NCBI GenBank assembly: GCA_012845835.1
Contig: JABAKD010000002.1
Span: 5,826,106 to 5,890,105 of the forward strand
Origin: Undaria pinnatifida
Lineage: Eukaryota > Sar > Phaeophyceae > Laminariales > Alariaceae
Direction of reading: 5' to 3'
Length of the DNA: 64,000 nucleotides
Shown here piece after piece: positions 6,379-64,000 of this stretch. The translations under genes were made by a program, and so were the position numbers. The notes under the pieces are model-generated. The model had not been told where the DNA came from. It ran no database searches and was given only the letters and a program-made list of their open reading frames with translations. Each line of letters starts with the position of its first letter. Within the stretch, counting starts at the first letter, position 1.

Positions 6379-25222
<18,844 letters not shown>

Positions 25223-28451: not shown

Positions 28452-28459
28452 TCGAGTCG

Positions 28460-40387: not shown

Positions 40388-41197
40388 ATGCGCACGGAAA
40401 AACCTACTGATGGACCCTCCTGGTCAACACTTTCGACGGAGCTTGCAGCTGTCTTACGAAAGAATGGACCGGTGCTGATCGGCGAAATCGCTGGAGCGTA
40501 CAAGGTACAACACGGTAAAAACTTTGATCTGTGCGGATACAGGCTGAGAGGCTGCCTCGACGAGGGCAAACTACGGGGGCTCCGGTTAAACCAGCGAGCT
40601 GGTGGGTCATATTTGGTGTTGAACACAGCTGATGATGCCAAAACACCCAGCGTGGCGGCCGCGACCCGTCGTACCGCACCGTCCAGAAAGGCACCCAAGG
40701 CCGTGGCAAGCGCAACGAGATCTACGTCGAGGCTAACAACAAAGTGTACATCAACAGCGACAAACATTTCTACGAATGCAACGCAGGCCAGAAAGTCCGC
40801 GCCAGCCACAATCAGCGAAGCTTCTTCGAACACCAACGCCATCATGGCTTCCGGGATAACCATACGCAGCAGTACCGCGACGGCCTTCGACATGTCTCTC
40901 GGGCGCGCCACAAACACACCGTCTTCAACAGTAGAATCCACGTCAAGTGCACACCCAGGATCGGTGCCCCCAGCACAGGCAATGTTTGAGACCGGGGGGG
41001 CGGAAAACACACCGCCGCCACCCGCTGGCGACCAAAAAGGAGAGCATCAACCCGCGTACCTCATGGTTGACAGCAGCAAGACCTGTGCGGAGTTTATCGG
41101 GCCGTCGTTGAAGAACATCTGCGAGGGGCATGCGATTGCTGTTCAGCTGGAGGGACGTCGGCTCGGCTCCGAGGATGGGAGCATCGCCATCATCAAG
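40388..41197 (+). CDS. LOTUS-exonuclease exon 1
   Basis: ATG at 40388 is the first in frame. 270 codons end at donor AAG|GTAGGT. LOTUS-like part: ELAAVLRKNG, IGEIAGAYKVQHGKNFDL, CGYRLRGCLDEGKLRGL, GGSYLVL, which fits helix-helix-helix-wing spacing. The linker is low complexity (ATRSTSRLTTKCTST and similar). The exon ends inside the first strands of the exonuclease fold (HAIAVQLEGRRLG, DGSIAIIK). Confidence 0.8.
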
Positions 41198-44100
41198 GTA
41201 GGTCGGCAATGTGTGCGCCTATCCTAGAACATATTTGTACCCGGCAGAACGCGGCGAGGGCGGGAACACGAGGGCGGGAAGTTACACATATTATGCGCTT
41301 TACACTACCTAAATCCGCCCTTGTGCACCCCTGCGGGTTACCTGTGGATTTTGCGTTGCCAGTGTACGGGATCGTGGGAGGTAACGATTTCCTCCGTCTG
41401 CCAGATACATACCTGGTACCGTATATCGCTCCCTCCTCCGGTATTCTTGGTATGAAGCGCACACGATTGCCGTGACTCCGCCCCTCTGATTGATACCAAT
41501 GATGATGCACATCAATGAGTCGTTCTGCGGTAGCCCCCCCAGCCTTTCTTTAACGAAATAACCGGTTCTGGCACCAGCTCCGGGCCGCATATCCTGAAAT
41601 ACGGTGCCCCTTGCCACCCCGACATCATCGTTCGATAGTCCTTTTCGCTAAATAAATGGTTGTACGATATTTGTGTTATAGCATCCTCCCTCGTGTCGAG
41701 CACCAATGAACCGTTCGTTAAAGAAAACCGCTGTTTTTTGGAGGGGCTATCGTAGAATCAGAACAATGATGATTCCAACGATACCCGTATAGATGCGTAC
41801 AACGACACGGGCAGCACATGGTCTGGCATAAATGATTATGAATGGTTCGGCGTCTAGACTTGGGCACTACCCGCTGTCTTTGACTTTTTTCAGTGCAGAG
41901 TATCATTCGATGCACATAGATAGTTCCAAGGGGAGTCGCCGACCTATATCCTTAATGAGGACACACACCCAGGAATACGCGCGATCGGAGTATCACACAC
42001 AGCTTGCAAAGATGAGTTTCGACAAAGGCTTCGATCTCACAGCTGGAGTGCATTTTAGTTTTTGAATGTAGTAGTTATACTGTATGCCGTGGGACAACCC
42101 ATCGGTGTGCACTCTCTCAGTTTATCACAGTCAGGTTTTACTCGGCATAGGCCTCCTCATACGTGGCACGTTCCACGAAAAGTAAGGCGCTCGCTCCCCT
42201 ATCGCGCCTTGCGTCTATGGTATGGTGTTCTTGGACCTTATTTTTTCAGCAAAAGTTTTAGGCTTCACTTCAGCTGAGCTTGTGAGAGGTTTTACGATAC
42301 CTCATCCATCTTCCTTTCTTTCGCCCAGTACTTGCCCTAACGTTTTTCGCTTAGATCTAGACTATAGGGTTCAGCTTTTCCACGTATCTGCTTTTTGGTA
42401 TCGTCGACTTGAAGCAATTTTGGCCAACTCACGACGCTCTCGCGCGTTAAACCGCGTGTCGATTTGTAAGCAAGTAGAGTCTCATCTGAGATTCAAAACT
42501 ACCACCTCTACCTTGATACAGCTACGCGGTTTTGGACCACCGGGGACGCCGGCTGCATGTATGATCCATGCAGAACACGCCCCCTCTAAAAACAAATCCC
42601 AGCACCAGTGTCGACTTCCCTCTTCACGCGTGGTATGTATGCGCCTTCATTTTCATCGCGAAAAGGTTTCAGCGTTCCCACTTTTCTGCTGTTTCTGAGA
42701 ACTCGACACGATTTGCATCAAATTTCGCCAAACTCACACACTCCATCGCGCATTACGCCTGTCGATTTGTGAGGAACAGCCCCTTGTGAGATTCTAGCCT
42801 TCAACCTCTACAGTTACATTCAATCGCTGCGCCACGGTTGTTTTTGGACCACCGGAGCCACTGCGGTCTGCATGTACATGTGTGCCATTTATGCAGAACC
42901 CCCTCCCCCCCACAAACACAACTATCCCAGCACCAGAGTGTCGACCTCAGACCCATGGTGTGAGAAGGTTTGATCAGACACAGCTTAAAAGAGAATGCTA
43001 TAAAGCACCCATCTCAAGGTGCAGATAGATGTACATGGTCCTGCTTTTGTCCCCCCCTCTCCCCCCGAATGTTTTTCGGCTCTTTATTTACCTAACAAAA
43101 GCCAGAAAGAAGAAAAGGAAACTCTTTTTAGATTCGGGATACCCTATTCACAGTAGTACCGGGGTAGTTTTTGTTTGCCCGGCGGATTTAATATCAACCT
43201 CGGGATGAGCCAGGTACTTGTAGGTGTTGACCGACTGTAATTCGTTTAGTAAACGAAAAAACAATTTTCCGCCAACAAAAAGAGGGCAAAACAAAACAGG
43301 CGTTTTGAGACGTGAACAACGCAATAAGAGCACTTACTTATTACACTTGAAACCCATCATAGAAACGTCACGAAAGAGGACAGACAGAGCAGGAAAGGCT
43401 TCCCTCTCGCATGTCTCACAAGTGTAATGTATGTTTTTTTCAAGTAAAGCGCAACTATGCCTGAGGTGGGATGCGGCAGTGGAGGTACTCCATTTTTCGC
43501 TAAGGGATTTGAGCCACTCGCACGAGTGACTCTTCTTGTTTATAACTAAAAATATTTTGGCACTTGGTGAGCTGCAACTTGCTTGACTTTGGAGGTTAAT
43601 AGGTGAATTGTGTAGGTCAAAACAAGATTTGATTACACCTTGCCCTGATGATCAAGACTGCTGTGTGGTCGTCCCGTCATTCCGTTTGTCGTACTTGAAA
43701 TGTTGTGAGCTGAGACGTTGTTGTGTAGGGCAGTCCTACACGGACTGAGTGATACGCGACAATGCGCATGAAGAAGTCTAGATTGCCAATAGAAATTATA
43801 ACGCAGTATGAGAATGCCTGAAACGCGACGAGCGAATCGTAATGCGCAATTTCCAGACACGTATGCTACCGGTAACGGCAACACAATGAACGTCAACCGG
43901 TAAACCGGCGTCGCGGATGGGTACCAGCATTTCAAGAGGTGACACAATGTTGCCCAATATGTGCACTAATCAGAAACGTCCCCGTTTCCATAATAATAAA
44001 AGGAAAACCTATCATAAATCTGCATCTACGTGAATATCCTGGACAAGTATGAATGAATGTATTACACTTGGGGCGCTGACTATTACTAGGACATTAAAAG

Positions 44101-47100
44101 CGCACCGGCTGCTGCTGCTCTGACAATCCAACGATCGGGTCAATCCATCATTATTGACGCGGTCGTCAGCGCGAACAGCGGCAGTTACATCATGTCTCAT
44201 TTGTTCGTGTTTTCGGAATCTGGTGACGAGTCTCGCAAATTTTTATGTGACATATATACGCGCGATCGGAGTATCACACACAGCTTGCAAAGATGAGTTT
44301 TGACAAAACCTTCGATCTCACAGACTCTGGAGTGTATTTTAATTTTTATAATATATACTTCGTATATATATTATATGCCTTTTTTCCGGAAAAAAAGTCA
44401 TGCAGGATGGGCCACCACCTCCCCGGATTCTTCCTACTCAAATTTGTAGCCAACTCTGTTGGGCCTCGTGTGTAGCAAAAACGACGATTGCGACGATAGC
44501 CAGCGTCTACTAGTTATTAGCGTGAGCTCGCAACGGTACGAGTAGGATGGTGCTGCTCCCTCCCGCACGAGCATTTGAATTGTTGGCCTTCGGACGACCG
44601 CAGTTTCATCATTGCCAACCAGCAGTGGCCGATGCCGTTATTATTGTCAATTTTCGCCTCTGAAGTCTCAAATGGGTTGGGTAGTAGTATAGACTAGACT
44701 ATACAGAGTAATACACAAGATAGGACGTTTACGCCTTCCAAGCACCACGCCATCAACCATCCCACTCGAGGCCGGTACGTCTTTCAAACAGACAAATTGT
44801 ATCTCCGGTGGTTTCACATAAATCCCGCTTGCGTCACTGCACACCGCATAAACTTGCCGCTTTTGTGTGGCTTGCGATGTCGGCCCCCTTACTCCCCTCC
44901 CCTCCTGTGTCCTTGTTTGTTGTGCCTTCAAACCTTTACCCATCGTGTGTTACTACCATCGCCCCCATTGGTAGCCCCCCCCCCCCCCCCCCCGGCCCGG
45001 GCACGCGAGCAATCACCCCTGTGTGGTACACTAAGCGGAACTAGATTAAAGTTTAAAGCGTGCTCATCGCCACCGGGGTTCGTAAACTTCCACCTCATCG
45101 ATATAATAGGAAAATCACCAAGGGCGGTAAAGTATAGAACAACATGCATAGAAGTATAGAGAATAATCATCCCGCACGTTGGGTGCTTAGTTCTCATCAT
45201 TATGCCGACCATCTCTGTACCACAATGAGCGCGTACATCGATACACGATGATACGTTGGATTCTGTACCTCCTATACGGATTACGCGATACGGTAGACGC
45301 GTAGTGGGGTGGGCGTACTGTTAACACTGCTGTGCTGTACGCCACAGCACCGATTGGATCGGACGCGCATTGTTTCTAGACTCCAACGACTATCTTAACC
45401 AACAACCAATATCGACATGATACAACTTCAGGGTGGTACCCAATCCCACTGCGTATACGTAGTCTATGGCCTGGCGGTACATATATTGCAACATCTACCA
45501 AACGCAGTAGCATATGCCTAACAAAGTAAAGTCACCCTCGCGTTCAATAGTGGTGACATCGCATGCCCACGTCCCCTCGCTAGGTGTATATGTAAGATGT
45601 ATCTCTGGCTTAGAGTTGGCGACCTCAGAGCCTACATCGGCACAATAAAAATCATAATAAGCGTAAAATCGTACATGTGAGACAATAATACTGTGAAAAA
45701 GAGGTACAGTCAGAGATATGTTTAAATGTGGTAAACGGCACTACCAACTTATTATGTAGGGTATTCCGTACATACTGTCTGCATAATCGCCTCCCAACCT
45801 ATCCCAAGCGAAGTATTGCTAACGAAGTAAGGTAATTGAGCGCGTGTACACTAAGCGTTCATTTTCAAAACAATAACGATTCGCATTTCTCCCTTTCGTT
45901 CTCAATGGCGGTGACATTGCATGACCACATCACCTCGCCTGTTGTACTTGGCGATATGTATCTCTTTCTTATAATTAGCGATGCCAGAAAATGATGGTAC
46001 CTACATGGTGGTACCTATCGATCGAAATATTCTATCTTTTGATCCACGTACAATACCAAATTATAAAGCTCTTAAGACGTTGTTTACTACACCTAAGAAC
46101 TGGGTTGCATACTACATGGAACATCAAACCTTCTAGAATAATGAACATTACCAGGCGGGTGATATATAGGGGTGTCTTCTTGCTGCAACCGTCAGATTCG
46201 TCGCCTTTGAGGGTTTGCAATTTCCGCTCACATACGAAATGCTCGCCCCCTCCCCCTCCCCTCCCCGATCCCTCTTATTCAAACGCCCCACCTGAAATCA
46301 AAGCTACCAGAGTAGTAAACACTACCAGCCAGCTGATATCATCTCATTATCCATCCAGCCATCCATGCCGTAGCTCCAACTCATCTCCGCCCTCCTTCCC
46401 CCTCCCCCACCCCTTTCGTTCCCCGCCCAGTTCGTTTAAACGCCCCACTTACAATCGAAATCGGCCAGAGTAATAAACGCTCCTAAGCAATTGATATCAC
46501 GTCATTATCTTTCTACCCATCCACGACGTAGCTTTCATTCATCCCCCCTCCCCCCCTTCAACGCCCACACCCCGCACAAGCGCCTAGACCCAGCACCGGG
46601 CGTATAGCAAGCCCCTACATATATGACTAATACGCGCGATCGGAGGATCATACACAATGTTGCGAAGATAAATTTCGACCAAAATCCTTGATCTTATCGC
46701 TGAAGTGTATTACATATTGTTATAAAAATTCAAATACACTCCAGCTGTGAGATTGTATTTTGTCGAAACTCATCTTTGCAAACTGTGTGTGATACTCCGA
46801 TCGCGCGTATTACAGGTTTTGTGTCCTCATTGAGAATATAGGCCGGCGACTCCCCTTGTAACTACAGTGTAGCTATCAGGGTCGACAGGGTGATGTTAGG
46901 CAGTCTGTGCGCGGAAACTATCAAACCCGTTCCTGAAGAGGACAAAATCTGACAGCTGTATGTAGAAGGAAATTCATCAATTTATCAAGTAAATGCTGTA
47001 AGTCGAATACCCGGTGAGGGGAGGGCGGAGTTTCGAAGGACGTGGGGGCCTGATTTTGATCAAAAGGGGGGCGGGAGGGGGGGAGAGGGGGGAGGGGACC

Positions 47101-50100
47101 GGTGGGGTAGGTCTATTTGTGCGTGAAAACTATGAATCCTTCTTGTTGGGGAGGGGGGAGGAGATGTGCCGGGGGGAGGGCGGGGGGCGGGGGGGGGAAA
47201 TGTGCCGGGGGGGGGGAGGGCTTGAGGTCGCATAGATGTAGGGGTTTTCTATACGCGTGGTACAAGGTCGAGGCGATGGTGCGGGTGGTGGGGAAGGAAG
47301 GGGCGTTGGGGGCGGCGATTACTATTTTATGTCCTGAGAAACTCCCCCCCCCCCCCTCCCCCCCCCCCTTTTTGTTTTGTTTTTTCCCCTCGCTCTCTCT
47401 TGCTCAAACGCCCCACCTAATATCGAAATCCGCCAGAGAAATAAGCACTTCCACGCCCTGGATATCGCCTCATTATCGATTTAGAGCCGTCCATGCCGCT
47501 GCTGCAACTCCCACCCACCCCCGCCCCCAACGTCCCCTCCTCCCCTACCACCCGCACCATTGTCTAGACCTAGCACCACGCGTATAGCAAACCCCTACAT
47601 CTATGCGCCTTATGCGCCCCACCTAATATCGAAATCCGCCAGAGAAATAAACACTTCCACGCCCTGGATATCGCCTCATTATCGATTTAGAGCCGTCCAT
47701 GCCGCTGCTGCAACTCCCACCCACCCCCGCCCCCAACGTCCCCTCCTCCCCTACCACCCGCACCATTGTCTAGACCTAGCACCACGCGTATAGCAAACCC
47801 CTACATCTATGCGACCTAAAGCCCCCCCCCCCCGCTCCCCCCCGACACCCCCCCCCCCCCCTCCCCCACAAGAAGGATTCATAGTTTCCACGCACAAATT
47901 GACCTGCCTCACCCGTCCCCGCCCCCCCGTCCCCCCTCCCTCCCCCCTTTTGATCGAAATCAGGCCCCCACGTCCTTAAAAACTCCGCCCTCCCGTCACC
48001 AGTTATTCGACTTACAGTATTTACTTGATAAACTGGTGCATTTCCTTCTACAGCTGTCAGATTTTGTTCCCCCCCAGGAACGGGTTTTATAGTTTTCGCG
48101 CACAGACTGCCTAACATCACCCTGTTGACCCTGATAGCTACACTGTAGTTGCAAGGGGAGTCGCCGGCCTATATTCTCAATGAGGACACAAAACCTGTAA
48201 TACGCGCGATCGGAGTATCACACACAGTTTGCAAAGATGAGTTTCGACAAAATACAATCTCACAGCTGGAGTGTATTTTTTTCTTTCATTACATATTGCA
48301 AATCCCCGCGCCCCTTCGTTTTCAACCCCCGCCCCCCCCCCCCCCCTTCCGCCGCACCGCAAAACCTCCACCCTCCCCGCACCGATGTACGACTGACAGG
48401 ATATACATGATAAATTAATGCATTCCTTTAACACAACCGTGTCACATTTTGTCCCCCTCAGCTTCGGTCTTTATTTTTTCCGCGCGCGGATTGAGTTGAC
48501 CCCTCCCCCCCCCCTGCTTCTCACCCGCCCCCCACGCCCTGCAAGTCTTCGCCCTCTCCTCACCGATTATTTGACTTACATGATATACTTGATAAATTAA
48601 TGCATTTCCTCCACAGCCTTTACATTTTGTCCCCTTCAAAAACGAATTTTATGGTTTCCGCACAAAGATTGAGTAACATCATTAACATCATCAATCTGTT
48701 GACCGTGGTAACAGGCACGCTGTGATTCTAAGGGGAGTCTCCGATCTACATTGTCAATGAGGACACACACCCCCCAGTAATTCCCGCGATCGGAGTATCA
48801 CACGTCGCAGGTGGCGAATAGGAGTTTCGAGGAAATCCTTGATCTCACGGCTGGAGTGTATTTTTCATCTTAATGGTGTAGATACACAGAACATAATTGA
48901 AGACTGCGCGTCCCACTTCTAAGCCCATGCGTAGCTCTTTACCTCTATGAGCCGCACCTATCACGCAGTTGGGAATTGTCTACGCTAAAGATCCGGGATA
49001 CCTCTATTGCCTCTATTGGTCAACGCGTACTACGATAGGCTAAGATAGAGGCGCACCACCTTGTTTTTTACCAGGTTTCTCACTTTGGGAGAGCTTGAGG
49101 CCACGGGAGGACCCAAGCGTCCCCTGGTCCCCGGTTTTCCAACCGGTAAGTCTAATATCTAGATGTTTCATCGGAACAGGAAAACACGTCGATACGATAA
49201 CACGCTTCGTTTAGAGCTCAGGCTGGTTCGTTAAACAAAGACCAGAAACCTATATAAACAAGGGCTCCATCCACACACGCTGTGAGTCTCGTCAGATCGG
49301 CGTCCCTCTGGTTTTCAGCAGAGGTCCACACCTCGACTTCGAGGTACTGCAGTGGTCGAAATTTGAGGTCCACAAGAACCGTTCTACGGTGCCCCCCCAG
49401 CGTTTCTTTAACAAAGTCGCCGGTTTCAAAACCAGCTCCCGATCGTATTTCCTGAAATACGGTGTCCCTCGACACCCCGACGTCATTGATCGACAGACGT
49501 TTGCACACAACAAAGTATATGGATCCTCTGTTATCAGTAGTGTCCTTCCTTGTAGCGAGCAGCCATGAAATGTTCGTTAAACTAAATCGCTGGTTTTTGG
49601 GGGGGCTATCGTAGTAAGAATCAGTCACAAAACGAGACAAAAAACGACTTCCAGCAGAACGTATGCGTTTCATTGGCGGGCAGCTACAGCTCCCCACAAG
49701 CAACCACGGCCCGCTAGAGCGAGAAACGCTCCTGGTGGAGTGTATAATGACGTCGGGTGCGCCAGCCAGCAGTCGTCGGCAGCCAGAGGCGACTCACGAG
49801 ATGTTTTTGTGAGTTCAAACTCGCGAGCAGCAACACCAAAAGCTACCGAAATCGCTGAAATATTTCAATCCACGCGCGAGCATAATACAATGAATGGGTA
49901 CGTCACCGATGAAAAGACGGTTTTCACCAAAAGCTTGCTGCTCACCAGGCGGATGACATAACCAACTCTGTAGTATGTGGGGTTTAAGGGCTTAGGATAA
50001 AAGACAGAGGCACACCAACATATGGGTGGTTAGTTATGGAGTCCAAACAAGGACCAAAAACGCCTGAAAAGCTCTGTACTATAAGGATCTTTGCTGCATT

Positions 50101-53100
50101 TTTTCCATTTTTTTTTAAATAAGGATGTTGTTTGCAAATGCCATACTCTTATTTCAAGTTGTTTTTTATGTACGCGAAATGCCTCCATACGAGCGCCTGC
50201 TCAAAACATCCCTGTGCTGTTTGGTTCATGCCTGCGCACAAGTCTGATGTATGATGTGTGTGACTGCATAGAATCTACGAAGATTGTAGAGTAGAACATT
50301 CGATATGATTGACGGTCCCAATTTTCGACATGTTCGAGTTGAACCCGCTTTGGCTCAGTGTACTATTACTGCTCTTGTAGTTGCCTTCGGGTGTGCATGT
50401 TCAGAGTGCCCGTCCTTCTTCGGCGGAGACAACCATTATATATATATATATATTATAAAAAATGAAAATACACTCCAGCTGTGAGATGGAAGATTTCGTC
50501 GAAACTCATCTTTGCAAGCTGTGTGTGATACTCCGATCGCGCGTATTACGGGTTGTGTATCCTCATTGAGGATATAGGTCGGCGACTCCCCTTACAACTA
50601 CATTGTAGCGCTATCAGGGTCAACAGGGTGATGTTAGTCAGTCTGTGCGGGGATATATATATACTAATACGCGCTATTGGAGTATCACACACAGCTTGCA
50701 AAGATGAGTTTCGACAAAATATTCGATCTCACAGCTGGAGTGTGTTCTCATTTTTTATACAATACTTGTACAAGTACCTGTTTTAACGACTGCTTCCGAG
50801 GGCCCATCGACCGCTCCCACCTTGACATGCTCTACCTCATGATGACCTAGGCAACCCCGTGTACGAGGCACTCCAACATGTGCGATCCCCCGTGGCCTGA
50901 AGACCTCGCCCGAAAATTGTTTTTGGAGAAGAATAAAACTGCTCTCGTAGGACGAAAAATCGCGTGGAATAGGTACACGACTCGAGAACCATGCAATACA
51001 AAAAAAGTAGCCTAGATTTTCCGACAATTTTGGATCAGGAACTGTTACACAACTAACAACTCCCGTCATTCTGAACACAATTCAAACGAAGAGGTGCTAC
51101 ATGATGAAATACATACCTCACTATCGTCGTAGCACGCGTCGAGCTCTAAACCCCACCCCGCCCCCAAAACAAAAAATGATCGTGGAGCCATCCCACCGTA
51201 GGGTTGTGCAGCGGAAAGTTCCTGAGCTCCTAACATGAGGAGGAGCTGGCTTAACGCCGTTAGAACTGGAAACCCTTTTTGAGGACCAAATTACTTGAAG
51301 TTAGTATAGACAGGGGTTTGGTGGCTCTCGTGAAGGGGTTAATATCTCACCTGAAACATGAGTTCGAAGGCATTCGTTCGCGCAAGCTAACCGAGGGCCT
51401 CTATGCCCGACACTCCTAAAACAAATTGCACTCGCGAACGTCGTAATATTATTGGACTAACCGGCAGTTAACCTCACTCGAGGGAGCTCACAACCGGAGA
51501 GGTATAACTTTTTTTGGCGCAAAACGTTTAAGCCCTACCGTCGGATGCCATTCTGAGAAACTTCAAATTTCAACCTATATTGGGTCCTACCGCACAACAA
51601 GGGTACTGCGTAAATACGATATAAAACAAAAAACCCCAAGAACGATATTGGGTTTTATAGAAGTCCCGACGTCCCGAACTTCAAAAATATATACTTCGCC
51701 AAAAAGTTCCGTTTCTATAGAATAAAAAAGGGAGAATAAAAAAAAAAAAAAAAAATACACTTCTTCAGTTATGGGGGGTCCACCCAAGAGGAAATCGATC
51801 AAACTCAGCTTTGCAAGCTGCGTGTGATACCTGGTTTCTCTATTGATGTAGCCGAGTGGAGGTCCGCCTCTTTCGTAGACTGGACAGCATGGCACTCACA
51901 GAAGGGTAGACCGGTGGCCCCGGTGGAGTATCAGGTTATCCTCGAGCCTGGTGGTGGAGGTCAGTTTTCTGAGTTCGAGCCCACCCGAGTGCATACTCGT
52001 AAAAATTCGTCGGGACTTTTTCTTGTGCACAAATTGACTTGCGGAAAGCGCGAGAGCGTGAGTTAGCAACACTCGATTAAAAGTCGACGAGTAGTGGGAC
52101 TGCTGAACCCTATGCGCGATAAAAACTGAAGGCAAGAACCGGGGGAGAAAAGGGACCACACCTGTGACCACGGCATATATGTCCAGAAGCTGGAAAGTAA
52201 AAGTGTGAGAAAAAAAAAACATAAACTTCGGAAACTACCACCGGTAGATAAGACTGGCAAGCGACGAGCAACAACACGTGTTGCCGTGTTGCTCTTTCTT
52301 GGACAAACAAACGAAGCCTGACAGGATAAAAGCTGTCTAATGCCCTTCACGAACGAACCGATAGGCAAAGCTGAGCAACGTGGCCACTTGATGTGTGCTT
52401 AGCTTGCTGCAAAATTTCCCTCGCGCTGCAGGTATTGGCGTTGTCGATGTGGTGATGTTGTGTTCATCTAATGGTAAATTGTTGTGGCCATGGCGGACGG
52501 AGACGGCGCTGCAGGTGGTGTTTGTTTGTGTACGTGTATCTCACTTGTTTGCGAAGTATCATTGTTGTCGAAATTGTGGCGACCACCGTCAGCTTCGCCA
52601 TTTTTTTCTGTGCACATGGTTGACATTTATTTTTGCGCGCCCTGTACGGAAGAGCACTAAAGTATCCAACGAACTTGTTGGATTGACAGGCAAAGAAATT
52701 CTTAGGCATAGAAGCCACGACTACTGCTGCTTTAGGTTCTAGCTATGAGAGCAACGTTAAGACCACTGACTGTACACACGTTATAAAATAATAATGAGCA
52801 GACTTGATCGAAAAATGCCCGAACCTTCCTTCGCTTTTCCTCCATGTGTCAGATTGGCGGAAGCTGGCCACATCCTGCGGCGCTGATGTTCGACGTCTTT
52901 GAGCTGGAGAGGACCCCGGAAGGACACCAACTTCTGCGCGACCAGCTGCTCCCGATGCTTCAAGATGACAGTATAACGAAGGTGGCATGTGTATCAACTT
53001 TCTACTCACCAACACCAACATCAACTTCTAGACTTCATAGGAGGAGCTATTATACACATATTATGCGTTTCAGACGAATACTGGTTATTATGGTTGTTAT

Positions 53101-56100
53101 TTCATTACCCTCCATCGTAGTCTATGTTCTGATGGATGATTTCAACCACGATGTGACAGTACGTACATCATCGTAAACGCCGTTGATAGGTGTATACCAT
53201 CTCTTTAGTAAAGTTGGGTATTCAGCACCAGGTACAGTACGTATTATGCGAGCTACTACTGCCGCTCACGGGTGACTGATTGTACGATAGCCCCCCCCCC
53301 CCCAAACCATCGATATTCTTTAACCAACGTTTCATGGCTGCTCGACGCGAAGAAGGATGCTATTAATATGATATGAAAACAACATTCTTCACATGTTTTA
53401 TTGTTCGCACAGGACAATCAAACGATGACGTCGGAGGGGCAAGGGGCACCATATTTCAGGGGATGCAGCCAGCTGCTGGTCCTAAAACCAGCGATTTCGT
53501 TACAGAGATGTTTGGGGGGACTACCGTAGAACGCCTCGAGCCCGAAAAACTCATCGTCGAAACAGGCGACAACCTAAAAAACATGCGCCGCCACGTTTCT
53601 CTGGTTTCCGCACGCACGGGGAGAAAATGAAAATGCTTTTTGTTTTGTTCGCGTGCGGCTTCAAATTTGCTTTTCGAGTATTGTATGACCCCTGCCTAAA
53701 ATTCCAACCAGTTTACACCTCCACTGTTCTGATTCCAACGCACAAAACGCGACACACATTGTTGCGTACACCTGCTATTACAATCACACACGACCCTTGC
53801 TACGATAGAGGTTCCATATGTTTTCCTTTTGTTTCTGAATAACGGGAGCTCCTCAACCCAGTGGCGTTTGGCATTCCGTGTCCCCCTCCCCCCCCCACAA
53901 CATTTTTCGTTGGATACCCTCAGAAGCCACGAGAGACCGTTCGTCGGGTTCAACTTTTTGGTTTTTTTTTTCCCTACATTTGATGTTGGGTGAAAGATAT
54001 ATCAACCAATGTTTTATCAAGCCAACCACCCTCAGATTGGAAGAAAAAAACAATGCTTAATGCATCTTCTAGACGTACCGCAGCCTATTCCATACACTCA
54101 CCACACACACGCCTTTTCTCTACGGCACAGGTGGTGCACGATTTCACAAGCAGTGCCATCGCCTTGAAGCGCCATTTCCGCGACGCCTTCGCGATTAACC
54201 GCGTTATGGACACGCAATTCGCGCTGGAGGCTCTGCGAGGCGACATTCGTGGCACCGTGGGCTCAGTGATAAAGGTCTTCGCGGGGGAGAACGACCTGTT
54301 CAGCGACGCTGCGTATAGGTGACGGCTGCTCCAAATCAAACTTTTTATCACTTGTTTCCCCCGGACAAGTCTGCTCGGTACGTCGTGTGTATGTAGCATG
54401 CTCCCAGTAAACGTGGGACACGGGGATGTTGGTGTTTGTCTGTTTCGCATTTCTCACCCGTCGAGGTTTGGCGTTTTGTTGCCGCCGGAAGGCCTAGGAT
54501 AAGCGCGCGTAAAGTTGTGTCTTTAACGCCGTCTTTTTCTACTCCCTGTGACCACGGACTTGATTATGCGAGTTGATGTGAAATCAACAACAACTCCCTA
54601 TCCCTGGCAACCGTGCGGTCTGCGAGAGGCGTCTTCCAATCGTACACGAAATAGCGATATAATAGGACTTGTGCTAAGGTAAGGTCGTTCCTAGCGAAAG
54701 GAAAAATATGCGATTTCTTAACATGCGGAAACTCTGAAATGTTACTAGATATAAAATAAAACGTCCTAAGCTTTTCGCATGTTTTCGTCAGGAATATCCT
54801 GGCATCATCGTTTTCAAGGTCTTTTTTCAAAAGTAGTCAAAGTCTGGATTACTGTTCGAAATCGACAAAGATCACGGTCCGTGTAAATAGTGATGATTTT
54901 TGTCGCGATTACTGCCAGCTATTGGGCGTCGGGCCAAGAACGACCGTTGGACGATGGACCTCGCTTAGTTATAGTACATCGACGTTTATGATAGATAAAT
55001 GTAGCCCGTCTACGCTTGCCGAGGTATCGTAGCTCTGGCACAACATAAAAACAAACAAGAAAAGGGCTTCGTAGACTAAATATCATACGTGACATTTCTT
55101 CGTTCACCTTCCGCGATCGACATCCTGCATGTGCGTATGTGGAGGGCGAGGTAAGGCGCCCACACAATACACCCAAGAACGTGCAGCGCAGAGCATCGCG
55201 CACGCGCTGGGCGATTCTCTCGGGATCGCGCTTTCTTCGCTGCCCCCCACTCTTCGCCACGTTCTCCCATGTATGCGACAGGTCGCGTCATATCTATTCC
55301 GTGTAGCCTATCTCCACGTCGTGCAAGGTGAAATCGGTAGGTAGCAGTGTGTGAAACAAGGAATAAGGACCAACACAAAGTATAGTCTATACACTTTTAT
55401 GTGCAGCGCAGAAAAGTTTCTCTTGCACTCGAGTGAGCTTCAAAACGTTCGGCCTCGAGAAGTACAGGGAGTGGATCTGAAGGTGTGGAGTAAGAATGCA
55501 TTAAGAATATGGGCAGTCCTTACGGGAACGCAAGCTTTCCCCATTATTTAGCGTATTGACCTATCAGAGCGACGATTTCACTAAATTTCAAGTTCCCATC
55601 TTACGTGCAGGGCGACCGCCTTCGACCACAGGGCGGACTCGAACATACCCATCAGCCCCCACGAACTGAATCGAGCCGCTCGCACGGTCAACTCCCTCGC
55701 CAAGGTGAGGCATGGTCTTCAGCCGCACCTACATGCTGCCTGCGGTATATGCTGCCGTTTTGTTTCGCCGTCAGACCGTGTGTTGAACATTATTCTTCTG
55801 GTCTAATTCAATGCCAGGTTTTGTGCGCCTTATATGATGATGTTGGCTCGGAGGAGGTGCGCAAATCATGCGCAAACGCTTGCCCAACATGAAAATACTC
55901 CTGTGCACGGCAAGAATATATATATGGCCTATACGATCAGAACGCGTAATTGTACAGAGTACAGCTTCTACGACGAAGTGCGGCAAGAACGGAGAGGCAG
56001 GGCAAAAAGTTGATCCGAGAGCTACCTCTATCGTACCATGTGTCACTGGTAGAGCTACCTCCATTACAGCACGCGTCTCTTATCGATGGGGCTCCGAAAT

Positions 56101-58526
56101 TGAAATACAGCGGTCCCCACCTTCGTTGGAATAATTGGTTTTGCCTTTGAAAAAAACTACAATCTTAACAAATTAAGTTTCCTGAAGGCCTTTGTAAGCC
56201 ATGATATTTTCGTTGCATCAAGCTTACAACCTACCTCCTTATTCAAGTTCCGGGTGTTGTGTGTACAGCTACGCAAGGGACGATATCCTCCAAACGTCTA
56301 GCTGCACCTCCAACACAGACACATACCGCGCGGTATAAAGAGTGCGTCTGCAGTTAGTTTTCGAATATACCGAAGATACGCAAGGGCAAGATACTCCAAA
56401 AATCACTCATGAGTTACCCAGCATCTTCGTTCGGACGGGATACAGGATACATATGCATTTAAAGGCTATTCTTAGCCGTAGGATACCCTCACACACGGTT
56501 GTGCAGTCGTGTCGGGTTTAGCGCAAGACATTTCGTAACGTCAATCGCTGAGTGTATAAGGTAAATATAGAACTCTTATTGAGGCGAGGAGTCTCAGACG
56601 AAACAGGTGTTACGCTTGCCGTAGGTATCACGCGCCCATAATAGCTTGCTTTTAATGAGCATGGCGTCAACGGTAACGCGCCTTTCGCTCTTCGCTTTCG
56701 TTCCAGGCCGGGGAGATTATCATGCAGACCGGACTCACTAAGGAGAAGCGAAACCACGTTCTGCAAGCCTCTGAGGTAATAACACGGCCGACATTTTTGA
56801 ATCGAGCTATGCTGTAGCATCACACATATTGTTTGTTTTTGGCACGTTCGAAATCCGCGGAAATGACGCACCGCAGTGGACGATACAATCACCAAACAAT
56901 GCTACGGTAGCCCTTGGAGTTATGCTGTTTTGCGCGCTTTTTCTTCAGTGGCTCGGTGTCACTCGCGCGAGTGACCCCCCCCCGCGGTTCCTCGTGGTTA
57001 AAAGGCTTTCTTTCGTTGCTGTTTTCAACATTCCTGACATGAGTACGAAAAGGGATGGTTAGCAGTGAGGTACAGAATCACTCGCGCTAGTACGATATGG
57101 TGTATAGCCTCAGACACATCACCAATCATCAATCTTGACTCACAAACGAAGCAGTTGGCTAGGCATCTCACGGTATATTTCAGCTACTGTTAAGAACGCA
57201 AACGTGGTAGTTATGGGGCCAATGGCGCAGGAAAGCGCGAGTCAATGCCGGACGCCTGCTACGATAGAGAGACAGCACTTTTTTTTGTCACTTTTTTCGC
57301 CTCAATGTCGGATCCCTTAAACCCCAAGTCGTCGGAAATACGCCATTTTTTTCATTACATGATTCTCGCTGTTTAGACCCTACCTAAGCCATGAGGTTTT
57401 TCACCCTGTGTAGCAAACTTGTTTTTCTCTGCCAAGTCAGTTTTTTGGGAGGTCTTGGCATCCAACATTGGGGAACCTCAGAAAAAAAAAGCGATGCACC
57501 TCTATAGTAGCACGCGTCGCCGGGCTTTCCCCAGGTCTTACATATTGTATTTTTGTTACTATGTAAACAACAAAATGCATGCTGGTATAGTTTAATCGTC
57601 ACTACTTTTACTCTCCCGCTTAAACGGTTAAGACGTTTCACTATCAGTGACCTCCTTGGACAAGTCATGATCACAGGTGCGTTCCCTTCCCCCGCCCCCC
57701 CCGGTGCTTGCTTTTACTCTTTAATGCGCATGGGGTGCAGCATTCCCGCTTTTCGCTTTTCTTGTGTCGATTGTCATATCAATTTAGTCTAGCTCACGCT
57801 CTCGAGCTTGTCGATCGTTCTTTTTGATTGCAAAAAAATGTCCATAGGAGCGCGAGTACGCACTCGGTAAGACTTGAACCCACGGCATTTGCCTTAGTAG
57901 GGATGCTATTCACCTGGCACTTCGTTGGGGACGCCGACATACATCATACCATGCCCACGCTTCTCAGAAAAAGTTGAGTGCACGCTTGGCCCGAAGGGTT
58001 GGGAGTCGAAGCACTAGTGATGCGTGTGCCCACCGAACGTGGCACCTGGTATGTATGCCACTTGATGCTGCTCACCCAAAGACCCCCCCCCCCCCCCTCC
58101 TCAATGTCGGAAACTACTTAATGTGCCATGATTTCGTAGGGAAAATAGCATTTATTTCTACCAGTACCCACCAGGTTTATATCCTGAACCTCTCCTGAAT
58201 TATTTCAGCGTGTTTCTTATGGTCTCACTTCGAGGTTTTCACCACCTGCATTCATAATATCCGCAGTGGTATCGCCTATCTGCCTACCCTCACATACCTG
58301 GTGTACCCTCAAACTTGTCTTTGTTTCGGCCGCTTCAACTCCCTCTCAGCTGAAGATCAGCTTCGCCATCTGCAACTTGGATCACGCCCGGTGGATATCT
58401 TTTCGCGACGAGGGTAAATGCTGGGGCGGCGGTGTTGGGAGGGTTATGACTAGCTACGAGATGAAGAAGGTCAGCCCCAAACTGCGGCAATATTTCGCTT
58501 CACACGTGGGAGAGGTCACACCGTAG
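40388..58526 (+). CDS. LOTUS/OST-HTH plus EXD1-like 3'-5' exonuclease-fold protein, six exons
   Basis: Exons 40388-41197, 52853-52981, 54131-54318, 55611-55704, 56707-56775 and 58350-58526 splice in consistent phase (0, 0, 2, 0, 0) to about 488 aa. Residues about 10-75 resemble the LOTUS (OST-HTH) winged-helix domain of germ-granule RNA proteins. Residues about 80-215 are a Ser/Thr/Ala linker. From about 222 the sequence follows the DEDD exonuclease fold of EXD1/Egalitarian: VDSSKTCAEFIG, AIAVQLEG, ALMFDVFEL, VVHD and VMDTQFA. Known animal EXD1 is an inactive RNA adaptor in piRNA production. Here the Exo I Asp is Gln and the Exo II Asp position reads Ser, so an RNA-binding rather than cleaving role is inferred. 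No membrane segment or signal peptide seen. Confidence 0.75.
41523..41758 (+). mobile_element. MITE family C, copy C5
   Basis: TTCTGCGGTAGCCCCCCCAG and GAGGGGCTATCGTAGAA. The nearest MITE to exon 1, 325 bp into the giant intron. Confidence 0.9.
41925..42060 (+). repeat. family D terminal block, solo copy
   Basis: GGGGAGTCGCCGACCTATAT, CGATCGGAGTATCACACACA and CTCACAGCTGGAGTGCATTT, without a C-rich unit before it. Confidence 0.85.
42395..42552 (-). mobile_element. diverged tRNA-SINE-like copy S4 (head half)
   Basis: On minus: CCCCGGTGGTCCAAAACCGC, GGTAGTTTTGAATCTCAG (weak B-box) and CTCTACTTGCTTACAAATCG then a GCGCGAGAGCGTCGTGAGTT body block like that of S1/S2. Heavily worn. Confidence 0.55.
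42690..42860 (-). mobile_element. diverged tRNA-SINE-like copy S5
   Basis: Same layout as S4 about 310 bp further on, including the shared flank TGCATGTA...CATGCAGAA and ATCCCAGCACCAG. S4 and S5 therefore look like a local tandem duplication rather than two insertions. Confidence 0.5.
42900..44250. other. giant intron, sparse region
   Basis: Only a partial family B palindrome block (GAGCCACTCGCACGAGTGAC, 43512) and T-rich or A-rich patches. No exon found. Confidence 0.4.
44255..44375 (+). repeat. family D terminal block, solo copy
   Basis: CGCGATCGGAGTATCACACA to CTCTGGAGTGTATTTTAATT, followed by an AT-palindromic ATATACTTCGTATATATAT. Confidence 0.85.
44376..46190. other. giant intron, with one diverged direct repeat
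   Basis: About 90 bp around 45543-45630 (GTGGTGACATCGCATGCCCA, GATGTATCTCT) returns diverged at 45898-45985 (GCGGTGACATTGCATGACCA, GATATGTATCTCT). A C18 run lies at 44977. Otherwise unrecognised. Confidence 0.45.
46200..48875. mobile_element. family D cluster: palindrome and tandem C-rich units
   Basis: A left part (46200-46715) ends in the terminal block. From 46733 the same block and units run in reverse (to about 47330), then forward again to 48290 and once more to 48875. Two terminal blocks thus meet head to head about 15 bp apart at 46720, forming a long potential hairpin. C- and G-runs of 10-20 are abundant. The 206-bp duplication described separately lies inside. Confidence 0.75.
47411..47822. 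repeat. 206-bp tandem duplication inside family D
   Basis: CCCCACCTAATATCGAAATC begins at 47411 and again at 47617. The two copies appear identical except for one base (ATAAGCAC versus ATAAACAC). A very recent event. Confidence 0.95.
49029..49130 (+). mobile_element. MITE family A, copy A12 (left end only)
   Basis: ACTACGATAGGCTAAGATAGAGGCGCACC, read as two overlapping tries at the terminus, then TTTGGGAGAGCTTGAGGCC. The rest is lost. Confidence 0.6.
49382..49617 (+). mobile_element. MITE family C, copy C6
   Basis: TTCTACGGTGCCCCCCCAGC to GGGGGGGCTATCGTAG. Core CTTTAACAAAGTCGCCGGTTT and ACCCCGACGTCATTGATCG are kept. Confidence 0.9.
49620..50435. other. giant intron, no recognised feature
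   Basis: No family member and no exon. T- and A-homopolymers only. Confidence 0.4.
50438..50770. repeat. two family D terminal blocks facing inward
   Basis: The first (50465-50560) is reversed (CACTCCAGCTGTGAGATGGA, ACTCCGATCGCGCGTATTAC) and continues into CGGCGACTCCCC. The second (50660-50760) is forward (GGAGTATCACACACAGCTTG, CAGCTGGAGTGTG). A TA repeat precedes the pair. Confidence 0.8.
50880..51133 (+). mobile_element. MITE family A, copy A13 (diverged)
   Basis: GAAGACCTCGCCCGAAAATTG, AATAGGTACACGACTCGAG, CGACAATTTTGGATCAGGA and CTCACTATCGTCGTAGC. Two short insertions near the right end. Confidence 0.75.
51185..51420 (-). repeat. dispersed repeat F, copy split by another short repeat
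   Basis: GGTTGTGCAGCGGAAAGTTC at the left and ATGAGTTCGAAGGCATTCG at the right are the two halves of family F. Between them sits a block (51255-51345) that elsewhere occurs alone at 14565-14650. Confidence 0.6.
51421..51907. other. giant intron, with a worn family D end at 51760-51830
   Basis: TACACTTCTTCAGTTATGG and AACTCAGCTTTGCAAGCTGC are the only recognisable parts, in reverse orientation. An A20 run lies at 51740. Confidence 0.4.
51908..52222 (+). mobile_element. tRNA-derived SINE, copy S2
   Basis: Head GGTGGCCCCGGTGGAGTATC, B-box GAGTTCGAGCCCACC at about 51974, body GTGCACAAATTGACTTGCGG and CAGTGGGACTGCTGAACCC, 3' end CAGAAGCTGGAAAGTAAAAG then A10. The best preserved copy. Confidence 0.88.
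52223..52852. other. end of giant intron, no recognised feature
   Basis: Sequence to the acceptor of exon 2, which has the tract CCTTCCTTCGCTTTTCCTCC. Open frames here overlap on both strands. Confidence 0.45.
52853..52981 (+). CDS. LOTUS-exonuclease exon 2
   Basis: Acceptor TCCATGTGTCAG, donor AAG|GTGGCA, 43 codons, phase 0 at both ends. IGGSWPHPAALMFDVFEL matches the strand after Exo I in EXD proteins (x-L-L-Q-V-x ... x-V-Y-x-F-D-V-x-x-L). LRDQLLPMLQDDSITK matches the helix before the K-V-x-H-D motif. Confidence 0.8.
53281..53532 (-). mobile_element. MITE family C, copy C7
   Basis: TGTACGATAGCCCCCCCCC to GGGGGGACTACCGTAGAA, inside intron 2 of the LOTUS-exonuclease gene. Its core CAAACGATGACGTCGGAGGG matches C4. 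Confidence 0.88.
53798..54000 (-). mobile_element. MITE family A, copy A14 (one clear end)
   Basis: GCTACGATAGAGGTTCCATA and AGCTCCTCAACCC are recognisable. The far end is worn. Lies 130 bp upstream of exon 3. Confidence 0.5.
54131..54318 (+). CDS. LOTUS-exonuclease exon 3
   Basis: Acceptor TTCTCTACGGCACAG, donor AG|GTGACG, leaves phase 2. Encodes VVHDFTSSAIALKRHF and INRVMDTQFALEAL. In EXD1/Egalitarian the same place reads H-D-C-R-x-D-S ... V-F-D-T-Q, so the first D and the D-T-Q strand are kept, while the second D, which supplies the Exo II acid, is Ser here. Confidence 0.82.
54319..55610. other. intron 3, no recognised feature
   Basis: No family A-F member. Overlapping frames near 54919-55378 on both strands have no splice support. 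Confidence 0.4.
55611..55704 (+). CDS. LOTUS-exonuclease exon 4
   Basis: Acceptor CATCTTACGTGCAG, donor AAG|GTGAGG. One base completes the split Arg codon, then ATAFDHRADSNIPISPHEL and ARTVNSLAK. No domain hallmark. Chosen because phase 2 in and 0 out fit both neighbours. Confidence 0.65.
56707..56775 (+). CDS. LOTUS-exonuclease exon 5
   Basis: Acceptor CTTCGCTTTCGTTCCAG, donor GAG|GTAATA, 23 codons, phase 0 at both ends (AGEIIMQTGLTKEKRNHVLQ). A helix-like segment. Small, so somewhat uncertain. Confidence 0.6.
56901..57098 (+). mobile_element. MITE family B, copy B8 (right end worn)
   Basis: GCTACGGTAGCCCTTGGAG, GGTGTCACTCGCGCGAGTGAC, TGAGTACGAAAAGGGATGG and AATCACTCGCGCTAGT. Lies in intron 5. 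Confidence 0.8.
57258..57511 (-). mobile_element. MITE family A, copy A15
   Basis: GCTACGATAGAGAGACAGCA to GCACCTCTATAGTAGC. Inner CCCTTAAACCCCAAGTCGTCG and GTTTTTTGGGAGGTCTTG. Confidence 0.88.
57652..57936 (-). mobile_element. tRNA-derived SINE, copy S3 (diverged)
   Basis: B-box on minus GTGGGTTCAAGTCT near 57868-57881. The body keeps a GAGCGTGAGC-like block and CCTGTGATCATGACTTGTCC near the 3' end, parallel to S1 and S2. Confidence 0.7.
58350..58526 (+). CDS. LOTUS-exonuclease terminal exon 6
   Basis: Acceptor AACTCCCTCTCAG, phase 0, 58 codons then TAG. Reads LKISFAICNLDHARWISFRD, a Gly-rich turn and KKVSPKLRQYFASHVGEV. No Exo III Y/H-x-x-x-D is evident. An internal GTAAAT after GAGG could be a donor, so a further exon cannot be excluded. 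Confidence 0.65.
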   Translation: MKISFAICNLDHARWISFRDEGKCWGGGVGRVMTSYEMKKVSPKLRQYFASHVGEVTP

Positions 58527-60602: not shown

Positions 60603-60859
60603 CTCCATTCTGCAGGCCCGACCCTTGACCGCCCCAGCGGCAGAGGATGCGGGTACTGCCTCTGATGTGAGCCACATCCGACGTGTAGATGAAGTCAGCA
60701 TGCGGAAGGGAAGGGTCAATGGTGTGGGAAACCGTTCGCATGACAGGAGTCTCCTTAAACACTTCCACAAGCTCCACGGTCTCAACCAGTACCTCCTTCG
60801 TAGACAACAGCTCGTCATGCTGAACACGTACGATATCTTGCCCACGCTTGTGTCCGGGC
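60603..60859 (-). CDS. candidate internal exon of a minus-strand gene
   Basis: On minus the acceptor is GAATTTTGTGTCTAG. The frame reads PGHKRGQDIVRVQHDELL, STKEVLVETVELVEVFKETP, VMRTVSHTIDPSLPHADF and SDVAHIRGSTRILCRWGG with no stop. The alternating Val/Glu stretch suggests a strand or coiled region. The donor is unclear (GGAG|GTGG at 60602 is possible). Function unknown. A + frame across the same bases is a weaker alternative. Confidence 0.45.
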
Positions 60860-61623: not shown

Positions 61624-64000
61624 GTGGGTGTTCTCAAGGGGATCGATAGTAACGAACCCCTCGTGTACCTCTCCTGTTCCCCAATTCTACCGATTTTGTC
61701 ACATTTGTCTGGAATATCTAATAACATGTAGTGTGTTTTCAACATCCCTCATCTCACAGATACTTCATTGTCTAAAGCAGCAAACAAGTTCCAAGATAAC
61801 TCGGTTCCATCATACGTTGTCGTATTTTTTTTGTGCGCCTTGAATTCTGCGTTCAATCAAACCTGTGCACATTCCATTGCTACAAGCTACGGGATGCATT
61901 CTTTTCTCAGACGTTAACCCCGGTCAATCTTGTACATAACGACACCTCCCTTCCGCCATGTGCTGGCGAGAACGAAGCCGACGGAACAGGTTCGTTCTCT
62001 TAGGTAGTTTCGTTTTCAGTAGAGGTTCTTGCGGCAGGATATATACATATCTCGTACGTAAACTTCAAATGTCCGTCACGAGTCACCATGTGTGGCTGGT
62101 GCGATTGTGATGAAATCATAAGTCGCTGTATTCTTCACCAAGGTTACAGCAGAAGGTTTAGTTGGTCGTTTTGTAGAATCTATCTCCACTCCACCGTCGG
62201 TCTAGTGTCGAGCGCAAACATTGGTCGTATTAAGCTCTTCTTGTGCGTTCCCGTTTACCGATACACCACGAGCATATGACCTCTTTTTCCATCCAACCAA
62301 CCAAACCCATGAATCATCAATCACGACCACCGTCGCAGGGTATGCACGTTATTCGCCAAGTTTTTGTTTTTCTGGCCCGTTGAGCTGTTGAAGCGAGGAA
62401 ATAACCTGTTAGTCTGATGTTTTTACGAGTGTACTATTTGATCCACGACTATTAATAGGGCACAGCGGTGTTGGGCGTGTTGCTCGAACGAGTGCCTTCG
62501 AAGTCATGGTAAGGGTCGTGAGATATTGATGGAGCTTATCATACTAGTGGCTCAGAAACTTTCGCTGCGCACCCTTACCGATGGAGGACAGCCCGCACAC
62601 ATGAATAATACCAGGCATCTATCGTCGAGGGTACGATAGGAGGGCACCCTCCATCTTGAAAAACGATAATTTCTAAACAGAACGAAAGAAAGAAAGCCTG
62701 TGACCGCAAGGAAAAAAGGGGCCACTCGCGCGAGTGACACCGAGCCCCTGAGAAACAAGTGGTCAAAAGGGGGTAATCCACCCCCCCCTCACCGCAGCGA
62801 TGGTCGTTTGATTTGTGTTCTTGTGTGTGTTCGTGAGGTTCGTAGGTGCGCGGAGTGTCAATCCCTCGATGATAATGCTGGGGGTAGCGCCTTTACCGTA
62901 GCTTAGGTCTCTTAGATTTCTTGTTTTTCGGTCGGTCGGCGCGAAATAAACGCATGTGCGTGGAGTCCAACTGAATGTTTACGTGACAGAAACTCCTTGG
63001 TTTTGTATCTCTAGGTCGTTTTTCGGCCACAATGAGAAGCAGACCGACACCAAAACAACGGCGGACGATGTGAACTCTCCTCTTGAGGTGCTGCAGCGAG
63101 TGCCAGAGGTCTTCCTCAGAGAGCATCTCTCAAGAAGGTGCGATGAGGTTCATTTACTCCATGGATAGTATCACACGGCGTTATAAAATTGGTAATGACA
63201 CAGATCAATCTAGTCGTGAGTCGATTGCTGCATAACACGCAAGGAGACCGTACAAGCATCCATGGGATAATTTTTTCCGACCAGCGCTTCCAGTAGCAAG
63301 AGGGGTACGCAGAGCGGAAAGGTGCATGTATGTGGAAAGATGTCGTCGAGACGTGCCGCCACGACATCGTAGGGGCAACACTAGAACATATTCAGAATGG
63401 TGCGGCGCGGCAGAAGCCAACATCATATTCGAAAACGTCATCATCTTATTTCGGAATATGGTGTTACATTCATAGACCATTGGCATTGTTTCTCGCGGGG
63501 TATCATTTAATTTTCCTCAAGAGCAGCTTTTGGGTGGGTCACGAAGCTCTTCGAGCCAGAAGGCTCACAACAGAATTGGTGCACTTTTACTGCTGCCGTA
63601 GCATGTGTTTCGAGATCATTCTGCAGACACCGTAGACGACGTTTTTACTCACTCTGTGGTGGAGAAATATAGTGAAGACTTAGACCCCCGAGTGGGTAGA
63701 TTCCCTGCCGTGTTATTCGTACGGCACTTCAACCTATCTAGCACGCCAACGGCATCGATCGGTACATTTGGCAACTTTTAAACTTGGGTGATGGTCTGCA
63801 GAGGTATTGCTTCTCAACGTTTCTCAACCTTTTTTTGTCACAATGATGATCCTCCAAAGGACAGGCGCGATGCACGAGGCCCCTGTATACAGTGAGCAGG
63901 CAGAACCACTTCAGTGCCTCTGCGATTCTCTGAACCGTGCAAATAACGGAAGTGCCGCTAGCATGATACTTGTGGACGGCATTGAGCAAGCAGCCCTCTT
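61529..64000 (+). CDS. 5' part of an unrecognised gene, three exons, runs off window
   Basis: Exons 61529-61623, 63015-63137 and 63860-64000 join in phase 2 at both junctions, giving about 119 aa so far. The N-terminus is Pro/Gln-rich and probably disordered, followed by helix-like segments (LEVLQRVPEVFLREHLSR) and an Ala/Ser-rich stretch. No signal peptide or known domain is seen. Family B and F repeats lie in intron 1. Direction is divergent from the minus-strand candidate gene to the left. Confidence 0.5.
62470..62580 (+). repeat. dispersed repeat F, copy
   Basis: GTGTTGCTCGAACGAGTGCC, TTCGAAGTCATGGTAAGGGT and CTTTCGCTGCGCACCCTTAC. About 50 bp before copy B9, as F and B are also close at 28.0-29.2 kb. 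Confidence 0.65.
62630..62798 (-). mobile_element. MITE family B, copy B9 (shortened)
   Basis: GGTACGATAGGAGGGCACCC, TGTGACCGCAAGGAAAAAAG, GCCACTCGCGCGAGTGACAC and CCCTCACCGCAGC. The middle GCAGCGTAGCTT segment is absent. Confidence 0.8.
63015..63137 (+). CDS. unrecognised gene, exon 2
   Basis: Acceptor TTTTGTATCTCTAG, donor AAG|GTGCGA. Encodes SFFGHNEKQTDTKTTADDV then the amphipathic LEVLQRVPEVFLREHLSR. Phase 2 in and out. Confidence 0.55.
63860..64000 (+). CDS. unrecognised gene, exon 3 (cut by window end)
   Basis: Acceptor after CAACCTTTTTTTGTCAC...CCAAAG, one base completing the split Arg codon. Reads TGAMHEAPVYSEQAEPLQCL, CDSLNRANNGSAASMILVDG and stays open to base 64000. Confidence 0.5.

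Follow-up and report, generated by a model that had tools for sequence, protein, structure and literature searches.

The window analysed here, a stretch of 64,000 nucleotides from the brown alga Undaria pinnatifida (contig C26, 5826106-5890105, in an assembly of 511,146,479 bases), carries on its forward strand a split gene that was originally predicted to consist of six exons, the last of them 58350-58526, with GT-AG borders and consistent phase, joining into a protein of 488 aa. The gene as revised below is listed in Table 1. Codon-position asymmetry of the joined coding sequence exceeded that of every one of 305 length-matched overlapping intron windows; for exon 1 on its own, the same held against all 318. 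Each exon was also scored with a coding model trained on the other five exons and compared with overlapping intron stretches, and its score was matched by 0/2266 stretches for exon 1, 19/2364 for exon 2, 0/2356 for exon 3, 7/2369 for exon 4, 3/2372 for exon 5 and 12/2357 for exon 6 (scored as 58350-58523). When the comparison was restricted to stop-free intron stretches, the scores of exons 2 to 6 were reached by 77/3193, 0/1519, 30/5066, 31/6857 and 53/1774, respectively, while the introns offered zero stop-free stretches of the length of exon 1. The length of the open frame alone is weak evidence, because 2 of the 60 windows simulated at order 1 and 3 of the 60 simulated at order 2 also contained an ORF of at least 287 codons. 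An antisense ORF of 281 aa (40204-41046) was set aside because the conserved protein reads on the plus strand, and an acceptor for exon 6 at 58209 was rejected, as the stretch it would add (58209-58349) scores as non-coding.

Table 1 Features of the LOTUS-like/exonuclease gene and its downstream continuation (window coordinates)
Feature	Coordinates	Strand	Basis
Exon 1: single open frame with LOTUS-like domain, linker and initial exonuclease strands	40388..41197	+	Codon asymmetry; kept in paralogs A and B
LOTUS/OST-HTH-like region, aa 10-78	40415..40621	+	PF12872 matches below cut-off
S/T/A-rich linker, length varying among paralogs	40643..41050	+	Alignment
Start of exonuclease fold	41129..41197	+	PF01612 match from residue 245; Egalitarian alignment
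Exon 2: exonuclease fold	52853..52981	+	GT-AG borders; acceptor ranking against Egalitarian; paralogs
Exon 3: exonuclease fold, ExoII acid replaced	54131..54318	+	Acceptor ranking; paralogs
Exon 4: last part of exonuclease fold, Tyr and Asp of ExoIII replaced	55611..55704	+	Paralogs; register with Egalitarian chosen by eye
Exon 5, 69 nt	56707..56775	+	AG/GT borders in three copies
Exon 6 with revised end	58350..58469	+	Paralog similarity ends at donor GT, 58470
Final 18 codons and stop of the original prediction, probably intron	58470..58526	+	Without paralog similarity past the common GT
Speculative connecting exon, entered in phase 0 and left in phase 2	60616..60827	+	In the window copy, its longer form (phase 0 out) has the best coding score of the stretch from exon 6 to exon 7
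Exon 7: N-terminus of SpoIIIAA/Ycf45-type AAA+ ATPase	63015..63137	+	Remaining exons lie beyond the window, to ~80591 (continued coordinates)

Of the 11.7 kb of intron 1, repeats seen within the window cover 4.0 kb; these repeats have zero overlap with the exons. An interspersed repeat family of ~245 bp occurs on both strands and also in the introns of the gene (27631-27875, 28454-28696, 41517-41757, 49380-49614, 53277-53540 and others). Elsewhere in the window lie a tandem satellite of ~534 bp in four copies (298-2443), parts of which are 97-100% alike and other parts 71-73%, and a CCCAA-like pentamer array (13948-14149). Two plus-strand stretches, 12894-13112 and 15233-15415, are probably exons of a DnaJ-type co-chaperone, matching DnaJ_C at E = 0.09 and at 3.5e-6 (above cut-off), respectively.

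Two paralogs, A on the minus strand and B on the plus strand, are located on the same contig ~180 kb away. Each has all six exons in phases identical to those of the window copy, with exon borders that we assigned ourselves; exons 2, 3 and 5 measure 129, 188 and 69 nt in all three copies, while exon 4 measures 94, 97 and 97 nt and exon 6 measures 120, 120 and 147 nt. The six phase-consistent exons of the original prediction, the sixth for most of its length, are upheld by the GT-AG joins, the coding scores and their recurrence in two paralogs, and the genes with a LOTUS-like and an exonuclease part form a small family in this kelp. The host had been taken for a protist or alga from the letters alone, and the genome indeed yields 61 chlorophyll-binding matches, indicating a photosynthetic eukaryote.

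None of the six single open frames queried matched the exonuclease family. The joined model of the window copy matched PF01612 at E = 0.00084 with a 209-aa piece and at 0.0047 with the 488 aa, both below the curated cut-off, and the match crosses the junctions of exons 1, 2 and 3. Paralog A matched at 5.9e-6, above the cut-off, paralog B at 0.0001, below it, and a copy on another contig, C57, at 0.11. Egalitarian was the sole PDB sequence found at E<=10 with the joined exonuclease part (E = 0.079), and a profile of the three paralogs retrieved Egalitarian at 6.5e-6 and 4e-5, otherwise only one unrelated chain (0.67); EXD1 was absent from the PDB matches of this profile at E<=10. The pairwise score against Egalitarian was reached by 0 of 3000 shuffles, whereas the similarity to Bombyx EXD1 was weak, 60 of 3000 shuffles scoring as high with an EXD1 query that comprised a 124-residue piece only. 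EXD1, proposed originally as the nearest relative of this part, was therefore rejected in that role, since Egalitarian scores better in both the pairwise comparison and the PDB profile search, though the two exonuclease domains are related to each other. Ranked against Egalitarian, exon 2 came second of 948 acceptors, tied with one other and preceded by exon 3 itself, and exon 3 came first of 332 acceptors given that exon 2 was already joined. Exons 4, 5 and 6 added nothing to the local Egalitarian score (ranks 202/275, 138/195 and 57/129); exon 4, placed in a register chosen by eye, gave p = 0.0023 by shuffling.

At the ExoI site, the window copy has Q-x-E where Egalitarian has D-x-E. Using what we take to be the positions of the DEDD catalytic acids in the exonuclease alignment, the four sites read D,E,D,D in Egalitarian, Q,E,S,T in the window copy, E,E,G,S in A and Q,E,G,A in B, while the C57 copy reads R,D,H with the fourth site not found. 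At least two catalytic-acid sites are replaced in each copy. As the acids are replaced in every copy, the sequences suggest that the exonuclease domain is probably a binding domain without catalysis, and nuclease activity would be missing. No relative could be confirmed from the searches of viral and prokaryotic collections. Genome-wide, PF01612 produced 20 matches, none of them in the four family loci, and ten of the loci so matched were inspected. By eye, three of these ten (L015, L017 and L019), on three contigs and with close frames, look WRN/EXD2-like and are possibly a dispersed family; one (L024) looks Rrp6-like, another (L021) looks like the end of an exonuclease, and in the five further loci inspected the frame reported was not the exonuclease.

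The N-terminal domain of the window copy matched PF12872 (OST-HTH) at E = 0.033 with the first 81 aa, at 0.033-0.038 with the N-terminal piece and at 0.25 with the 488 aa. The bit scores of the window copy (14.3) and paralog B (20.3, E = 0.00049) both fall below the cut-off of 23.8, and paralog A and the C57 copy gave no PF12872 match. For the N-terminus of the window copy and for that of paralog B, OST-HTH was the one Pfam family listed, but its score alone is weak proof, because unrelated Pfam matches at E = 0.006-0.08 turn up in other window ORFs. When the 511-Mb genome was searched with PF12872, two candidates were scored and the sole match at E<=1 fell in exon 1 of paralog B (19.5 bits, E = 0.42). 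What counts is where this match lies rather than how high it scores, because a chance match to WH_Egal (PF23713), the Pfam family of the Egalitarian ED1 domain, reached 19.0 bits (E = 0.98) outside the gene family, in a genome-wide search that gave none above cut-off. WH_Egal did not match the N-terminus of the window copy either.

Searches of the PDB at E<=10, with the window domain or with a three-copy profile, listed zero LOTUS chains. Against a profile of five animal LOTUS domains, the window domain cannot be told from chance, its score being reached by 87 of 3000 shuffles. Other window ORFs score higher against this profile, and with Egalitarian ED1 added to it the score of the domain was matched by 564 of 3000 shuffles. 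In leave-one-out runs this animal profile gave true LOTUS domains 30-46 bits, and it also misses Egalitarian ED1 (-0.2 bits, 217 of 2000 shuffles as high). Aligning the region directly to ED1 showed no similarity above chance (934 of 3000 shuffles scored as high), and a single-sequence AlphaFold model was of too low confidence to be usable (pLDDT 43). With moderate confidence, the sequence matches point to a LOTUS-like domain, which may be a true LOTUS fold. Of the originally proposed union of LOTUS and exonuclease in one non-animal polypeptide, the exonuclease fold stands, by PF01612 (above cut-off in paralog A only) and by Egalitarian, while the LOTUS assignment is less firm, its profile matches in the window copy and B being below cut-off.

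Similarity among the three copies ends at a common GT, KK|GTCAGC in the window copy (58469/58470) and KE|GTAAGG and KE|GTAATT in the paralogs; the donor of exon 6 in the window copy, AAG|GTCAGC, is weak. Because of this common end, the stop at 58526, where the 488-aa protein had been predicted to finish, is most likely intronic, and the gene probably runs past it. Downstream on the gene strand, the window copy and paralog A have nine exons in common, in the same order. The joined downstream exons of the window copy match PF19568 (Spore_III_AA) at 8.5e-9, above cut-off, and TIGR02858 at 2.7e-14 (53.1 bits, below the equivalog cut-off of 281.3), with intact Walker A (GEAGSGKTT) and Walker B (TIVVDEI) motifs. 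A PDB search with the ATPase listed midasin only, via the P-loop (2.6e-4). This ATPase had been overlooked in the original prediction, and only its first exon lies inside the window.

With the best-looking acceptors, exon 6 leaves in phase 0 and exon 7 requires phase 2, which would call for a connecting exon in between; in neither the window copy nor A did the search reveal a conserved candidate. Weak pairs between these two copies near 60.6-60.8 kb and 62.7 kb were not accepted as conserved exons, the latter resembling a repeat, and for the speculative exon of Table 1 no counterpart was accepted in A. An in-frame phase-0 acceptor (CAG), identified by eye a few codons inside exon 7 in both copies, would make direct joining possible. 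In paralog B a single ATPase exon remains, the last one (C26 5705909-5706067, locus L011), ~830 bp past exon 6, in phase 0 and open to its stop. Differences between this exon and the other copies are commoner at third codon positions, a part of them belonging to the branches of the other copies, and the remaining ATPase exons of B seem to have been lost.

When the joined ATPase was used as query against the genome, 17 exon matches with E<=0.001 emerged. They fall in four loci, with 7 matches each in the window copy and A, 2 on C57 and 1 in B. All three multi-exon ATPase loci lie downstream of exonuclease-type exons, and no locus among the 17 matches was without such exons. The PF19568 search of the genome returned 0 matches; further family copies may exist, because the genome searches with PF19568 and PF01612 miss known exons. 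The C57 locus has the exon 1 tail and exons 2, 3 and 6 ahead of the ATPase in the same order, with weak matches for the first three (E = 0.49, 0.005 and 0.004, tblastn within 50 kb), the first two of which sit apart from one another, and a match of 9e-5 for exon 6 in an ORF comparison; searches for exons 4 and 5 at this locus came up empty. The exon 1 tail is contained in an open frame of 1195 codons whose N-terminus matched no Pfam family and reached only E = 0.91 against the LOTUS region of paralog B. The C57 donor of exon 6, AAG|GCAAGC, is of the GC type. A candidate connecting exon (C57 1248340-1248923) is open, enters in phase 0 and leaves in phase 2, and is followed by a phase-2 exon 7. 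Exons 6 and 7 in the window copy suggest these same phases. The borders were picked by hand from 12 listed donors and 10 listed acceptors, of which 2 and 3, respectively, had the required phase. The C57 ATPase copy matched the SpoIIIAA/Ycf45 profile at 9e-6, below cut-off.

Taken together, we consider it most probable, at roughly 0.6, that the gene encodes an RNA-handling protein of three parts, predicted from sequence as a LOTUS-like domain, a dead Egalitarian-type exonuclease and a SpoIIIAA/Ycf45-type ATPase. The LOTUS-exonuclease and ATPase halves would then form one polypeptide. They may instead belong to two adjacent genes, a LOTUS-exonuclease gene that ends soon past exon 6 and a separate SpoIIIAA/Ycf45-type ATPase gene, copied together by block duplication. 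We regard this as unlikely, but it deserves weight because no conserved connecting exon links the halves in the window copy and A and because the exon 6 donor is weak; the phases of exons 6 and 7 at their best-looking acceptors clash, and known relatives of the ATPase are generally separate proteins. Two independent genes fit less well with the order kept in three multi-exon ATPase loci, one of them on a different contig, or with 17 ATPase matches of which none lies apart from exonuclease-type exons. The phase-fitting candidate exon on C57, the lone last ATPase exon that B retains open and in phase, and the phase-0 CAG acceptor inside exon 7, which would permit direct joining, likewise argue for one chain.

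Doubt about the N-terminus takes a different form: it may be another small helical domain that merely resembles LOTUS, in which case the gene would encode an Egalitarian-type exonuclease-homology protein without LOTUS. That the sole genome-wide OST-HTH match falls within the gene family, that paralog B reaches E = 0.00049 and that the position of the domain agrees with the LOTUS-like domains of Egalitarian make this a rather improbable account, despite the sub-threshold OST-HTH scores and their absence in A and C57, the PDB searches without a LOTUS chain, the inconclusive animal LOTUS profile and the unrelated Pfam matches of similar strength in other ORFs. An EXD1-type piRNA or RNA-silencing adaptor, the role originally suggested, is very unlikely. 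EXD1 and Egalitarian do have related exonuclease domains, and PIWI-domain exons, seemingly from a single gene, occur in the genome (6 matches inside 5 kb of contig C38; PIWI or Argonaute), but the similarity to the Bombyx EXD1 piece is of the weak kind described above, EXD1 is missing from the PDB matches of the profile at E<=10, and no specific evidence for a silencing role was found.

In the three-part protein that we favour, the chain would run from a LOTUS-like winged helix through a flexible linker to a catalytically dead Egalitarian-type exonuclease fold, and from there, probably via a second linker, to a C-terminal, bacterial-type ATPase. By analogy with Egalitarian, the LOTUS-like and exonuclease-homology domains may hold structured RNA without cutting it, and the ATPase would power remodelling or movement of the RNA-protein complex, so that the whole could act as an RNA-binding clamp joined to an ATP-driven remodeler. 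Both RNA binding and an ATP-driven step are expected on this proposal. We put at about even odds the wider view that such genes represent a new eukaryotic family, expanded in a brown alga, of RNA-protein motors or remodelers that combine a LOTUS-like domain, a dead exonuclease and an AAA+ ATPase on a single chain. On that view, two RNA-gripping domains would replace the nucleic-acid-binding module of other Ycf45 relatives, which we take to be R3H. Among the matches listed in the open-licence literature, as far as the texts were available, none described the LOTUS-exonuclease-SpoIIIAA trio. The pair of LOTUS-like and exonuclease-homology domains, described recently as reading stem-loops in mRNA transport of the fly, would occur outside animals, and the pairing would be either ancient or have arisen twice. 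If the ATPase is on one chain with this pair, the gene offers a new and testable coupling of RNA recognition to ATP hydrolysis, and in any case an entry point to brown-algal RNA biology.

The closest known system is Egalitarian, the Drosophila mRNA-transport adaptor (PDB 9uju, 9rvy), the best solved sequence relative of the kelp exonuclease part, in which, as in kelp, a LOTUS-like winged helix stands N-terminal to an exonuclease-homology domain with flexible linkers. PMC13186709 describes three LOTUS-like domains followed by an exonuclease-homology domain, states that the putative catalytic residues are dispensable, and has RNA stem-loops held by the LOTUS-like domains together with the non-catalytic exonuclease fold. 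Because Egalitarian has both domains (PMC13186709), the LOTUS-exonuclease pair is already known in animals, and the architecture is not, as originally thought, foreign to described families. The kelp gene differs from Egalitarian, whose layout as published comprises three Egl-type winged helices (WH_Egal), an XAD helical domain and no ATPase, in having one OST-HTH-like domain, replaced catalytic acids and ATPase exons downstream. The OST-HTH/LOTUS proteins Oskar, TDRD5/7 and Limkain b1 (PMC2848206) resemble the kelp protein in placing a LOTUS-like domain beside other RNA-related domains; stramenopiles are listed there among OST-HTH bearers, and section 5 of that article names no 3'-5' exonuclease or SpoIIIAA partner for these proteins. 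The Bombyx protein EXD1 (PDB 5fiq) has a related exonuclease fold, to which the kelp sequence is less similar than to Egalitarian in a comparison with a piece only. EXD1 is not known to carry a LOTUS domain or an ATPase. For the downstream half, the relatives are the SpoIIIAA-type AAA+ ATPases, among which we count Ycf45 and plant SPD1, as judged by the PF19568 and TIGR02858 matches and the Walker A and B motifs. Known SpoIIIAA/Ycf45-type members are generally separate or R3H-bearing proteins, unlike the kelp ATPase exons, which sit behind LOTUS-exonuclease exons.
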